Positions 1 to 5,258 of a stretch of 64,000 nucleotides of DNA are shown here, in pieces (within the stretch, counting starts at the first letter, position 1; each line of letters begins with the position of its first letter). Origin of the DNA: an uncultured Poribacteria bacterium (lineage in GTDB: Bacteria > Poribacteria > WGA-4E > WGA-3G); the NCBI GenBank assembly GCA_951812525.1, contig OX638316.1, positions 1 through 64,000 of the forward strand, read 5' to 3'. The notes beneath the pieces were generated by a model. It ran no database searches, was not told where the DNA came from, and worked only from the letters and a program-made list of their open reading frames with translations. The position numbers and the translations under genes were made by a program.

Positions 1-93
1 GTAAATAAGTAAACAGGTTTACCGGGAAATAACGTTAATTTTCTCCGTCAGATAATAAATCCACGGCAAAAGGAAGCAATTGTCAACACTGTA

Positions 94-597
94 TTGGGAG
101 ATGTTTTCAGCTATCCGAAATGGTTAGATGTCCTTGAGGAACTTGGATTAACACCTGCTGAGTCACTAAATCCACAACTGGAACAACCTACAGACCGTGG
201 CGACAGTCCTGCCGAGAGCATAGCACATAAGCGACTCAAAGATTATGTAGCGCAGTATCCGAAATCCGTTGGACTGAAAAAGTCGCTAGCACCTGGTGAC
301 ACAGAGTATGTTCTAAGATCAGGTGACCGAGTTGATGTCTTCTTTCAAAGCACTCAATGCCATATCGTAGTAGAGGTTAAATCTCGTATCTCAGACGAAT
401 CCGATTTGAGACGTGGTTTCTTCCAGTGTGTGAAATACCGAGCGGTTCTCAGAGCTTGCCGAAACCTTGAAGGTGAGACATACGAGGTCGATGCTCTACT
501 TGCCATGGAAGGTTCGCTGCCTGACGAACTCATTCCAGTTAGGAATACACTTGGTGTGAAGGTGATTGAAAACATTCAGGTTAAGGACAACTACTAA
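94..597 (+). CDS. PD-(D/E)XK nuclease-like protein, 5' end uncertain
   Basis: Soluble protein of at least 167 residues. The C-terminal half has the strand pattern of a restriction-endonuclease-like fold: D81 in RVDVFF followed by E94-V-K96 in VVEVKSR, then a helix with RRGFFQCVKYRAVL. The D-x12-ExK spacing fits the PD-(D/E)XK superfamily; the substrate is unknown. The only conventional start is a TTG at 94, with no well-placed ribosome site (a purine-rich AAGGAAG lies about 18 bases upstream). The frame is open back to a stop at 10-12, and the codons from 13 translate to plausible protein (NFLRQIINPRQKEAI...). The gene may therefore start at a rare codon or be the tail of a longer gene broken by a frameshift at the window edge. 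It is followed by another nuclease-like gene and a protease gene on the same strand. Nuclease fold is moderately sure, biological role unknown. Confidence 0.6.
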   Translation: MGDVFSYPKWLDVLEELGLTPAESLNPQLEQPTDRGDSPAESIAHKRLKDYVAQYPKSVGLKKSLAPGDTEYVLRSGDRVDVFFQSTQCHIVVEVKSRISDESDLRRGFFQCVKYRAVLRACRNLEGETYEVDALLAMEGSLPDELIPVRNTLGVKVIENIQVKDNY

Positions 598-654
598 CCG
601 AGCATATTCCGCAAGTTTTACGTTAGCACTATAAAAAAGATTGGCATACTAAAT

Positions 655-1881
655 ATGGAAAGATTATTTTCAAATACTTTATGGTTTGACGTTGAACAGG
701 GCGTACTCAAAGCGATGGAAGCCGAGATCAACACTTGGGATGGAGATCAATTGCTCGATACATCCATAGATGATCTTTGCGAGCATTTTGTTGAGAAATA
801 CCGGATTGACGTTCCAGTTCTCAATAGGAATGAGATAATCATAGACTACGAAGACACACATATTGACCTCAGTGGAGGTATAAGGCACAGTATTGACGAT
901 CGAAATGGTTCTGTTCAGGTTCAGGGGATTAGAATCGAAATCACCGTGCCATACACAGGAAACACAGCCGCATTCTTTTCTCAACCAACCTCTTCTTCAG
1001 TTAATCGACCTCGCGCGCATGTCAACCACAGAAAGAAGCATCTTATCTTGGTAATTCCTGGTGCATATCTTGAACATGACGCGGTACTTCAAACGATTAA
1101 TAGTACGCTTGATAAAATTGATGCTTATCTAGATGCTCTTCGTGAAGATGCTGCCAAACTGAACGGCGATCTTGACTTGATCGCACGTCAATGTATTGAA
1201 GAACGTTGCTCAAGGTTATCGGCGAATCGGGATTTAGTTAAATCACTTCCCTTCAAACTCAAACAGCGTAGTAATTCGCTAAGAACTCACGAAGTTCCCA
1301 AGGTGCGTAGGAAAATCACACCAAAGTCTCCACAGACAAGCACACAACCCTACCAATCCAAATTATACCTTGATGAAAAGAATTACGAATACATACTTAA
1401 GGTTATGGAAAATATGACTCGAGTCATGGAACTTAGTCCTGCTGCCTTCTCAGACATGGGTGAAGAAGTATTACGATGGCATTTCCTGGTTCAATTAAAC
1501 GGACATTACGTAGGTCAAGCTACTGGTGAAACATTCAACTACGAAGGAAAAACCGATATTTTGATTCGATCTGCAGGAAAAAATATTTTCATCGCCGAAT
1601 GCAAATATTGGGGTGGTCCCAAGAAACTAACGGAAACAATCGATCAACTTTTGGGATACAGTTCTTGGCGTGACACCAAAGTGGCAGTGATCATTTTTAA
1701 TAAAAATAAGAATTTCACTAAGGTTTTAGAAAAGATCAAATTAACGACGAAAGAACATCCCAATTGCCAGCGTGAATTAGAACGACGCTCAGAAACATCT
1801 TTCCGTTTTATTTTTTCTCATCGAGATGATCCGAATAGAGAAATGACACTTACCGTAATGGCATTTGATGTTCCGAAATGA
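655..1881 (+). CDS. Restriction-endonuclease-like protein with C-terminal D/ECK nuclease motif
   Basis: A 408-residue soluble protein with no signal peptide or membrane segment. Residues 1-240 are not recognised; they include a helical stretch around 155-200. The C-terminal region has D301 in GKTDILIR and E315-C-K317 in IAECKYW, the spaced D...ExK signature of PD-(D/E)XK nucleases, followed by QLLGYSSWRDTKVAVIIF, a helix-strand pattern common in these folds. The ATG at 655 has no clear ribosome site, although the coding pattern begins there. It lies 57 bases after another nuclease-like gene and 114 bases before a trypsin-like protease gene, all on the + strand, and the block looks AT-richer than the housekeeping genes to the right. 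Defence or mobile-element function is an inference from the nuclease fold and company. Confidence 0.65.
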   Translation: MERLFSNTLWFDVEQGVLKAMEAEINTWDGDQLLDTSIDDLCEHFVEKYRIDVPVLNRNEIIIDYEDTHIDLSGGIRHSIDDRNGSVQVQGIRIEITVPYTGNTAAFFSQPTSSSVNRPRAHVNHRKKHLILVIPGAYLEHDAVLQTINSTLDKIDAYLDALREDAAKLNGDLDLIARQCIEERCSRLSANRDLVKSLPFKLKQRSNSLRTHEVPKVRRKITPKSPQTSTQPYQSKLYLDEKNYEYILKVMENMTRVMELSPAAFSDMGEEVLRWHFLVQLNGHYVGQATGETFNYEGKTDILIRSAGKNIFIAECKYWGGPKKLTETIDQLLGYSSWRDTKVAVIIFNKNKNFTKVLEKIKLTTKEHPNCQRELERRSETSFRFIFSHRDDPNREMTLTVMAFDVPK

Positions 1882-1995
1882 ACTAGAAATAACAGTATAA
1901 CCAATCAATGCATGGAATCCTGCTAACAAGCAGATACTTAATAACGTTTACTATTCATTTTATCTGTTATGATATGCACCCAATGAGGAACCTAA

Positions 1996-2784
1996 ATGAC
2001 AAATACATTTTTTGAACATCAGATAGCTTATATCACTACCAAAATTACTATCGAAACTCCAAGTAAAACTGGTGTCGGAACGGGGTTCTTTTATGAGGCA
2101 CCTCTGAATAACGATACAAATAGATCTCTCACATTGTTAATATCAAATAAACATGTGTTTTTTAATCCGAAAGGAAGATTAATTGTCAGCCTGAATTGTA
2201 AGAAAGAAGATGACACTCCAGAATTTGGAAATGTAATTACATTTGATCAGATAGGATTTGAAAAAGCATATTTTATTCACCCTGATCCAGAGGTCGACTT
2301 AGCATGCATTAATGTTTCCAAAATTTCGCGCACAAATGCCTTTTATAAATGCCTACACAACGACCTCTTGAGGCGGATAGATTACGATAGAATCGCGGTA
2401 GGAAGCGAAGTTATATTTGTAGGTTATCCAGACGGTCGCTATGACACTGTTAACAACTTGCCTTTAATCAGAAAAGGGTGGGTTGCGTCAATGCCTAATA
2501 TTGATTTTAATGGCAGAGGTCAAATTGTTATTGATGCCCAAGTATTTCAAGGATCAAGTGGTAGTCCTGTCTTCGTTAGTTGGGATGGCAAGTATTCATT
2601 ATTCGGTGTTGTTTCGGAGACAATGGTGCGTGATTCAGAACTTCAAATCTTACAAGCAAATACTCCACAACTTGGAGTTGAAGAGGTACTTGGACTTGGT
2701 ATTGTTATAAAGCAGAGACACGTCCAAGAACTTATAGATTACGCTGTTAATGAGCATATACGAAGAACTTCTTCAAGTTCCTAA
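1996..2784 (+). CDS. Cytosolic trypsin-like serine protease
   Basis: A 262-residue chymotrypsin-fold protease. The triad can be read as H53 (SNKHVFF), D101 (EVDLACI) and S188 in GSSGSPVF, the counterpart of the GDSGGP motif. There is no signal peptide or membrane anchor and no PDZ domain, so it is not a DegP/HtrA type and probably acts inside the cell. The start ATG has GAGGAA six to eleven bases upstream. Cytosolic trypsin-like domains are known from bacterial conflict systems, where they are thought to cleave host or partner proteins once triggered. Its position right behind two nuclease-like genes fits that idea, but no sensor domain is visible in the protein. Protease call is strong; role is inferred. 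Confidence 0.8.
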   Translation: MTNTFFEHQIAYITTKITIETPSKTGVGTGFFYEAPLNNDTNRSLTLLISNKHVFFNPKGRLIVSLNCKKEDDTPEFGNVITFDQIGFEKAYFIHPDPEVDLACINVSKISRTNAFYKCLHNDLLRRIDYDRIAVGSEVIFVGYPDGRYDTVNNLPLIRKGWVASMPNIDFNGRGQIVIDAQVFQGSSGSPVFVSWDGKYSLFGVVSETMVRDSELQILQANTPQLGVEEVLGLGIVIKQRHVQELIDYAVNEHIRRTSSSS

Positions 2785-2822
2785 CCAAATGCTTTTCCTG
2801 TGAGATTTCTTCTGCGAGTATT

Positions 2823-2980
2823 TCTATACACATATCGCCCCGCTAGGGCTGCCTTTTTGAGATGAGTATCGGTATTACAAACACCTCCCTCTAAAAATGG
2901 ATATTTATAGACCTAGCACTCCTCTGGAGTGCGGCGGTTGAGTGACTTTTTTCTATAGACATGTTGCTCCTTCGGAGCAA
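2823..2980. repeat. Array of three short hairpins with a shared leader
   Basis: Three stem-loops follow each other, each preceded by a TATA(G/C)AC-like leader: GCCC/GGGC at 2837-2849 after TCTATACACATAT, GCACTCC-TCT-GGAGTGC at 2916-2932 after TTATAGACCTA, and TTGCTCC-TTC-GGAGCAA at 2964-2980 after TCTATAGACATG. Loops are three bases or close to it, while stem sequences differ yet stay paired. They lie behind the protease gene but lack terminator T-tracts, so they look like copies of a dispersed palindromic element, not attenuators. Confidence 0.55.
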
Positions 2981-3162
2981 AAATCCGGATTGGAAAGAAA
3001 TGGGCGATTTTTACGACAGACACCAATCATAAGAACGAAAATCCACCACCCACAGGTAGGTATACGTATAGACAACGGTATCTTCGTGTTTTCCATGCCA
3101 GAGGCGTATATGTCTCGTAAAATTAAGATTGGGAAATTGCACCTATCTGCTTAGGAACACAA

Positions 3163-3300
3163 ATGGAATACATTGTTATTATTGAAGAAGATGAAAACGG
3201 TTGCAGTGCTTATATTCCCGATCTTCCCGGATGCATTGCTGCAGGCGAGGTTGGGAATGCAGATCGCATGAATCAACGGTATTCATGCCGTGTGGCATGA
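3163..3300 (+). pseudogene. Truncated HicB-like antitoxin remnant
   Basis: The ATG at 3163 opens a 45-codon frame whose first 29 residues match the start of HicB-family antitoxins: MEYIVIIEEDENGCSAYIPD then LPGCIAAGE. In full-length HicB this N-terminal RNase-H-like domain continues with a helix and further strands. Here the frame runs into unrelated repeat DNA and stops at 3298-3300. The junction falls just before a CATGCC-GTGT-GGCATG hairpin (3284-3299), which suggests that a repeat insertion or deletion cut the gene. No hicA toxin gene is next to it. Confident as a remnant, unlikely to be functional. Confidence 0.65.
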
Positions 3301-3684
3301 ACCGGGTCGAGTACGCCACAAAACCTTGCCTACCGCTTTAAGGGGACGAGAAAGCGTCGGGGTTACAAACCCCTCCTACAGAGAACAAGGATGAGTAGAA
3401 AGAGTGGTTTGGGTAAGATATTAAGTTAAATCTAATTTATTATTTCGCGTTTCACGGAGAATGCGAATATTGAATCTCAAGAACCCACGTCCTGCCTGCC
3501 TCGAAAAAACGCTCCGTGAAGCCTCCGTGAATTGAGAAAGGAGTCAGGATTACAAATCCCTCCTACAAAAAACGCTTACAATGAGAAAAGAGTCGGGGTT
3601 ACAAATCCCTCCTACAAAAAACGCTTAAAATGGGACAATCCTTCCATAATTTCCACCTCTGAAGATATAGCACTACTCTGATTT
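3301..3684. repeat. Repeat-filled intergenic DNA with 49-bp tandem duplication
   Basis: No gene is visible here. A hairpin GGGGTT-ACA-AACCCC followed by TCCTACA lies at 3357-3382. TTCACGGAG near 3449 is inverted near 3512 as CTCCGTGAA. A 49-bp unit is repeated head to tail twice at 3534-3632; each copy contains GG(A/G)(T/T)T-ACA-AATCC followed by CTCCTACA. The same hairpin with a CCTACA tail returns at 16318-16479 and 34884-34908, so this is a dispersed family. Confidence 0.7.
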
Positions 3685-3718
3685 TTGTGACACCTGTTTC
3701 TGTAAAATATGATATAAT
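3685..3718 (+). promoter_or_regulatory. Possible sigma70 promoter for the carboxypeptidase gene
   Basis: TTGTGA at 3685-3690 is followed after 18 bases by TATGAT (3709-3714), which overlaps a perfect TATAAT at 3713-3718. It lies about 60 bases upstream of the carboxypeptidase ATG. The -10 is good, the -35 is weak. Confidence 0.4.
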
Positions 3719-3776
3719 GCGCTTATGAGGCGATGGGTCTGAGTCTTGCGAAGAAAAAGTAGGGAGAAAATCTGAT

Positions 3777-5258
3777 ATGAGTGAACAGGAAAAGAAAGAT
3801 TCTGAAGAAAGTTCGGCTGAAGAGAAAAATTCACCTACACCTGAAGATAACCTCTCGGTTACACATCATAGCGTCACGATTAATGGTGAAGAGATCCGAT
3901 ACACGGCGACAACAGGAACACTCGTGCTGAAGGAGGAGATCGATAAGGAAGGCGAGAAGGCGAAAGCCTCAGTCTTTTTTATTGCTTATACTCGCGACGA
4001 TGTAGAAGATATGTCCAAACGTCCGGTAACTTTCTCGTTTAACGGGGGTCCTGGATCGTCATCGGTGTGGTTGCATTTAGGTGTGTTGGGACCGCGGTGT
4101 GTGGAACCCGACGCAGATGGTGAATTGCCGCATCCGCCCTATCAACTCAAGAATAATGAATGTTCCATTTTAGACAAAACAGATTTGGTCTTTATTGATC
4201 CGGTGAGTACTGGATTCAGTAGAGCGGTGCCGGGGGAAGAGGCGAAGCAATTCCACGGTTTTAAGAAGGATATTGAGTCCGTAGGGGACTTTATTCTGCT
4301 CTATTTGGGACGCTACAAACGGTGGGGTTCACCTAAGTTTCTGATCGGTGAAAGTTATGGAACGACGCGTGCGGGAGGACTTTCGGGTTACCTTCAGGAA
4401 CGACACGGCACCTACCTTAACGGCATTATGCTCGTCTCGGTTGTGCTGAATTTTCAGACAATTCGGTTTGCACCGGGAAACGATCTTCCTTATATCCTCT
4501 ATTTGCCTACATACGCAGCTACGGCACTTTATCACGATAAATTGGAGACAGATTCCCAATTTGAGTCCTTCGTAGACGAGGTCCGAGAATTCGCTATGGG
4601 CGAATACACGACCGCCTTGATGCAAGGCAGCACACTATCCGATGATCAACGCGCTAACATTACGCAACAACTCGCCAAATATACCGGACTGACCGCCGAA
4701 TATATTGAACAGACGGATTTGCGAATCAACATTATGCGCTTTTGCAAGGAACTCCTCCGGGATGAAGGTCGCACGGTCGGACGTTTCGATAGTCGGTACA
4801 AAGGTATTGATCGTGATGCTGCAGGTGAGATGTTTGAATACGATCCTAGTTCGGCAGTCGTACAAGGCGCGTATACCGCTATGCTGAACTATTACGTGCG
4901 TGATGAACTTGATTTTGCGTCTGATCTTCCGTATGAAATCCTGAGCCGACGTGTGCATCCGTGGGACTACAGTGAGCACCAGAACGCATACGTTAACGTT
5001 GCAGATACACTTAGAAAGGCGATGACTACTAATCCGGCATTAAAGGTCTTTGTCGCTAACGGTTATTACGATCTGGCAACACCATTTTTGGCATCAGAGT
5101 ATACCTTCAGCCACCTTGGACTCGATAAATCCTTGCAGGATAACATCACGATGGCTTACTATCAGGCAGGACACATGATGTACATCGACCAAGGCGAATT
5201 GGCGAAGATGAAAAGAGATCTGGATGCTTACCTTGATAATGTGCTTTCTGGGGAGTAG
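3777..5258 (+). CDS. Serine carboxypeptidase, peptidase family S10
   Basis: A 493-residue alpha/beta-hydrolase peptidase that removes C-terminal residues from peptides. The family marker FNGGPGSSS is present near residue 90, and the triad can be placed at S193 (GESYGT), D432 (NGYYDLATP) and H466 (GHMMY). The first 25 residues are acidic and there is no signal peptide, so unlike the secreted or vacuolar eukaryotic enzymes this one may be cytoplasmic. The ATG at 3777 has GGGAGA upstream. A Gfo/Idh/MocA gene starts two bases after the stop, so the two are probably one transcript, perhaps for peptide and sugar-derivative catabolism. Family assignment is secure; substrate is not known. Confidence 0.9.

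Follow-up and report, generated by a model that had tools for sequence, protein, structure and literature searches.

Two families catalogued by PADLOC, PDC-S54 and PDC-S45, are the closest described relatives of two of the genes considered here. Both are predictions by the PADLOC authors; a search of the literature found no published functional test of PDC-S54, and PDC-S45 has been reported in Sinorhizobium prophages (PMC12429752). Protease domains of a related kind also occur in Lamassu LmuA and in RT-protease, and a nuclease domain comparable to that of a further gene of the locus is present in NucS/EndoMS and in the CARF nucleases Card1, Can2 and Cdn1. We compare with these a locus of an uncultured Poribacteria bacterium (genome G000), and consider it to be, with a probability of roughly 0.6, a mosaic stack, located in a Poribacteria hotspot, of anti-phage effectors that evolve separately and probably each consist of a single gene. 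What is new is the family of the first gene, the slot in which the genes lie and the small HNH gene at their head, rather than the three genes as a system.

The window, i.e. the whole stretch of DNA that was analysed, comprises the first 64 kb (bases 1-64000) of a single contig of 5,062,467 bp (5.06 Mb), and begins within the first of three genes, here called A, B and C, that all lie on the forward strand with gaps of 57 bp (A-B) and 114 bp (B-C):

1..597, forward strand: gene A, 3' part, with an MGMT-like N-terminal domain and a PD-(D/E)XK nuclease; the full gene has 283 codons
10..12, forward strand: TAA interrupting the frame of gene A at the contig junction, where relatives encode an amino acid
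655..1881, forward strand: gene B, 408 aa, PDC-S54 family (PADLOC profile), with a C-terminal restriction-type nuclease, D301/E315/K317
1996..2784, forward strand: gene C, 262 aa, PDC-S45 family, a signal-less trypsin-like protease, H53/D101/S188 (PADLOC and Trypsin_2 profiles)
3163..3300, forward strand: HicB-like antitoxin remnant, an intact relative of which matches HicB_lk_antitox

The initial annotation had described a same-strand cluster with short gaps, richer in AT than its surroundings and close to a toxin-antitoxin remnant, and each of these descriptions holds: the GC content of 1-2784 is 0.398 compared with a mean of 0.469 (sd 0.014, minimum 0.439) in the other window stretches of equal length, and the remnant is the HicB-like fragment listed above. 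Purifying selection acts on all three genes (dN/dS 0.12-0.29), and inspection of the three protein sequences revealed no hydrophobic N-terminus. A search of window positions 1-4000 for structured RNAs or introns gave no Rfam match. Just 3' of gene C there is a 31-bp stretch (window 2820-2851) of which the genome contains four further copies with 93-94% identity, and which is also present downstream of C in the related genomes G076 and G071.

Since the genes for a Gfo/Idh oxidoreductase and an S10-type peptidase, located near opposite ends of the contig, adjoin in sister genomes, the two contig ends belong together, and the pieces L006 14463-16468 and window base 1 onward read as one locus. The leftward extension that had been recommended could be made through this other contig end, where it yielded 85 more codons of gene A: its start lies beyond the window, at L006 16214 (contig base 5062213), and the first 85 codons form the ORF L006 16214-16468, which continues in the same frame across the junction to window base 1. 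Joined in this way, the 283-codon gene matches intact relatives along its entire length, at 63-69% identity. The catalytic core previously read as D81/E94-V-K96 in a forward-strand ORF of 167 aa stands (D at window 334-336, E at 373-375 and K at 379-381), whereas the 167-aa length, which was counted from a TTG at 94, has to be given up for the 283 codons. As to the TAA at 10-12, it may be either a mutation or an assembly-edge error, and since the contig ends exactly here the two are inseparable. One may also consider that the locus holds nothing but decaying defence remnants without present function, in line with this TAA, the HicB remnant and the broken copies of C seen in G071 and G035; we find this very improbable, as apart from the TAA gene A keeps an open and conserved frame to either side, and B, C and the HNH gene described below are intact and under purifying selection.

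A represents a conserved nuclease family, spread over many phyla, and has in its predicted structure (pLDDT 91.4, pTM 0.88) a NucS/Card1-like domain. In the model the C-terminal domain is a PD-(D/E)XK nuclease whose closest fold is that of NucS/EndoMS (Z 11.6), and it also resembles Cdn1, Can2 and Card1 (Z 8.4-9.2). The likeness to these proteins is one of nuclease-domain fold: unlike them, A shows in these alignments neither a CARF domain nor the N-terminal domain of NucS, and its own N-terminus aligns with MGMT. Specifically, residues 10-127 of the model can be superposed on several MGMT structures with Z 6.3-6.5 over 82-96 residues. In contrast to MGMT and ATL proteins, A lacks the PCHR alkyl-acceptor motif and is fused to a nuclease; among 69 aligned homologues the corresponding columns hold mostly Q/N, then C/A/S/G, with no invariant cysteine. 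A profile comparison of the N-terminus with Poribacteria MGMT proteins was not significant (probability 2%, a short alignment in the helix-turn-helix region). Given the absent motif and this comparison, we rejected the possibility that A is an MGMT/ATL enzyme. The MGMT-like domain would probably recognise particular or modified DNA and direct NucS/Card1-like cutting.

Outside the genus set of this genome, the closest relatives of A come from Candidatus Poribacteria MAGs, and homologues of about 280 aa exist in Pseudomonadota, Planctomycetota, Bacteroidota, Cyanobacteria, Acidobacteriota and candidate phyla. Across the 69 aligned homologues the core D, E and K do not vary, nor do about ten other residues. 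No match above cut-off was obtained in Pfam for A or an intact relative, and no descriptive match in PADLOC-DB 2.0.0, PHROGs or NCBIfam (the latter searched with the 3' part only); comparison with phage records gave no match, and comparison with the sequences of solved structures nothing meaningful. Thus, of the profile searches that the initial annotation had proposed, those for B and C returned families (PDC-S54; PDC-S45 and Trypsin_2), while A, for which the libraries as searched have no entry, is recognisable as a nuclease by fold; its architecture is open to experimental test. A plain tally of the genes around A in other phyla contains DrmD, type III R, Mokosh, BREX and a number of PDC genes, as well as housekeeping genes. 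Relatives of the nuclease domain were also observed at the C-terminus of proteins of 990-1590 aa in many Poribacteria genomes (e.g. L045:1489-3348, reverse strand), and the N-terminal domain is found on its own, as proteins of about 130-160 aa, in several (L102:7760-8161, L103:8263-8691).

Gene B matches PDC-S54 over positions 5-407 of the 410-position profile (E 5.7e-144, 478.6 bits). The core that had been noted in it, D301/E315-C-K317, is in place, its three catalytic residues being invariant in 15 aligned homologues, and the C-terminus has a fold like that of OkrAI and BamHI (Z 9.3 and 8.6, respectively). For the N-terminus the fold search returned weak matches to type III secretion chaperone-like proteins alone (Z 5.1-5.5). 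B may be pictured as a restriction-type nuclease with a sensing region of its own at the N-terminus. A and B would both attack incoming DNA, each by way of a different recognition domain. A classical (type II) restriction-modification system was set aside, since no methyltransferase was recognised when the ORFs from one flanking gene to the other were inspected by eye. Whereas PDC-S54 is catalogued as a single gene, here B follows A and precedes C; elsewhere, with neither A nor C, it occurs on plasmids, next to toxin-antitoxin, NACHT, PIN-domain and restriction-modification genes, and on phage-like contigs.

Gene C matches PDC-S45 over positions 11-285 of 293 (E 1.1e-52, 176.9 bits) and Trypsin_2 with 41.5 bits (cut-off 27.6). 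Its H53/D101/S188 triad is intact and invariant in five homologues and its N-terminus is not hydrophobic, in agreement with its original description as a signal-less trypsin. The trypsin or protease domains of Lamassu LmuA and RT-protease match C more weakly (E 1.6e-11 and 4e-9), and, unlike in those systems, no SMC partner and no reverse transcriptase were recognised when the ORFs of the insertion were inspected by eye. C also differs from the PDC-S45 of Sinorhizobium prophages in being part of a chromosomal stack with nucleases. More distant relatives of C exist on phage-like contigs. C is a cytosolic protease that would probably cleave a protein of phage or host upon infection. Trypsin-like domains are much expanded in the genus, with 1 to 19 matches per genome (e.g. 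G000:C1:4920516-4921028), which makes any one cytosolic trypsin less surprising.

The initial annotation had gone further and suggested that the three genes work as a unit. Such a multi-gene conflict system, in which the nucleases would sense foreign DNA, the protease would serve as effector or activator (for instance by cleaving A or B) and the HNH protein would be a further nuclease, agrees with the shared strand and short gaps, and blocks of these genes do recur: G072 has A-B in its slot, beside a NucC-like gene and an ISP enzyme, and G076 has an HNH-A-C block at another site, its own slot being empty. In two genomes A-C occupies different sites, which may point to a preference of these two genes for each other. 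Yet the combinations seen in relatives also include C alone, Res-C-Mod, A alone and B alone. Out of 77 loci of A outside Poribacteria, B was nearby in none, and a trypsin relative adjoined A in one, a Rhodoferax MAG, where the trypsin is a distant one that can be counted for the unit. B stands alone on its plasmids and phage-like contigs, and C turns up in other company: in G018 and G020 a relative of 66-67% identity lies between Res and Mod of a type III restriction-modification operon (L110:5087-10600; L111:4978-10505), and G052 has the order DUF2806-C-HicB, with HicB following C. Since the partners are not retained outside Poribacteria, an obligate three-gene system was not kept as the leading view, and we consider a dedicated unit quite unlikely. 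Homologues that are scattered and never adjacent had been named as evidence against the unit; scattered they mostly are, but the A-B and A-C pairs recur within Poribacteria. The pattern is better explained by separately mobile effectors than by one machine, that is, A, B and C would be gained, lost and recombined individually.

This stack of independent effectors occupies a defined chromosomal slot, delimited by the following features, the two flanking genes being named from a reading of their sequences:

L006 14463-15548: Gfo/Idh oxidoreductase gene, left flank
L006 15932-16144: HNH gene, 70 aa, 5' of gene A and outside the window
3777..5258, forward strand: S10-type peptidase gene, conserved right flank
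about L006 15567/15568 to window 3679..3680, no strand: DNA inserted in G000, about 4.6 kb, relative to the empty slot G079:C171

The flanking genes are present in 37 (Gfo/Idh) and 36 (S10) of the 38 genomes of the genus. We scored the 25 slots whose two flanks share a contig, G000 being included by reading across its junction: 12 are empty, the flanks lying 162-490 bp apart, and 13 are filled with about 1.4-10 kb. In G079 one contig shows the slot empty and another shows it filled, in a bin listed at 6% contamination. The filled slots contain type ISP restriction-modification, NucC-like DUF6602, FRG-TPR with DUF2806, subtilase, trypsin-TPR and HicB genes, or in a few cases transposase-like or other genes instead. 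The slot is a hotspot of defence-gene turnover in this Poribacteria genus, and one orthologous position, empty in about half of the scored sister slots and holding different defence genes in many others, provides a natural record of that turnover. Since B and C match PADLOC families, both are catalogued single-gene defence candidates; together with the defence genes among the neighbours of A and the hotspot, this gives good support to the link to conflict and defence that had been proposed, while the fixed three-gene unit that went with it is not supported. Our preference for the stack is based on gene content, intact cores, purifying selection, the hotspot and the mosaic distribution; for anti-phage function, shared transcription, substrates and triggers we infer from domains and context.

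A promoter-like site precedes the HNH gene at L006 15853-15882, from which A, B and C would probably be transcribed together; in the window itself, a scan gave no more promoter-like sites than were obtained in shuffled sequences. About seventeen HNH copies of at least 80% protein identity were found in the family, some of them broken or at contig ends, and they are distributed over about five chromosomal contexts: the slot, a region between a HemN-like and a peroxiredoxin-like gene, a position beside a TruA-like gene, and two others (the three "-like" names reflect translations read by eye, not profile matches). Copies within one slot are mutually non-independent, so no probability is attached to this distribution. 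On their 3' side, and on the same strand, the copies are followed by varied cargo, namely A-B-C, A-C, C, subtilase, trypsin-TPR, FRG or DUF2806, with the first recognised cargo match starting 44-418 bp past the HNH stop; in G036 an unclassified gene of 337 aa follows, and G037 has no cargo. Promoter and HNH gene are thus the constant head of cassettes with interchangeable same-strand cargo, and the small HNH gene is a candidate mobility or effector component.

One may also consider that this head is a capture or homing platform, at which the HNH nuclease or recombination spreads or swaps cassettes, A-B-C being one cargo. Besides the number and variety of the copies, the extent of similarity between sites fits this explanation: in most copies outside the slot it sets in about 95 bp ahead of the gene, close to the -35 box of a TTGAAT-TATAAT-like promoter, and it stops at or just past the HNH stop codon, so that leader and gene are what is shared. 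The low median dN/dS of the HNH gene (0.09) also fits. However, no homing target motif or terminal repeat was seen by eye at the left ends and there is no recombinase, several filled slots have no HNH gene (e.g. G072), and the leaders resemble one another less within the slot than they do elsewhere. We therefore regard a platform as unlikely relative to the mosaic stack. A bolder version, which we would put forward as speculation, is that promoter and 70-aa HNH gene form a reusable head which picks up single-gene defence effectors (nucleases, trypsins, subtilases, FRG/DUF2806) or makes them mobile at several chromosomal sites in Poribacteria, with A-B-C as the instance here, and that A is a new and widespread defence nuclease sensing DNA by a repurposed MGMT-like domain.

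In several Poribacteria cassettes the subtilase gene is overlapped at its end by the gene of a 115-116-aa protein for which Pfam gave no match. Copies of this protein are:

L097:6190-6534
L098:460-804, reverse strand
L228:3291-3635
L268:6570-6914, reverse strand
L275:2851-3198

This protein may be a partner or an inhibitor of the protease. In G076, after A-C, and in G073, after trypsin-TPR, it is left with no more than the last 24-26 codons of the subtilase, as if the subtilase had been replaced.
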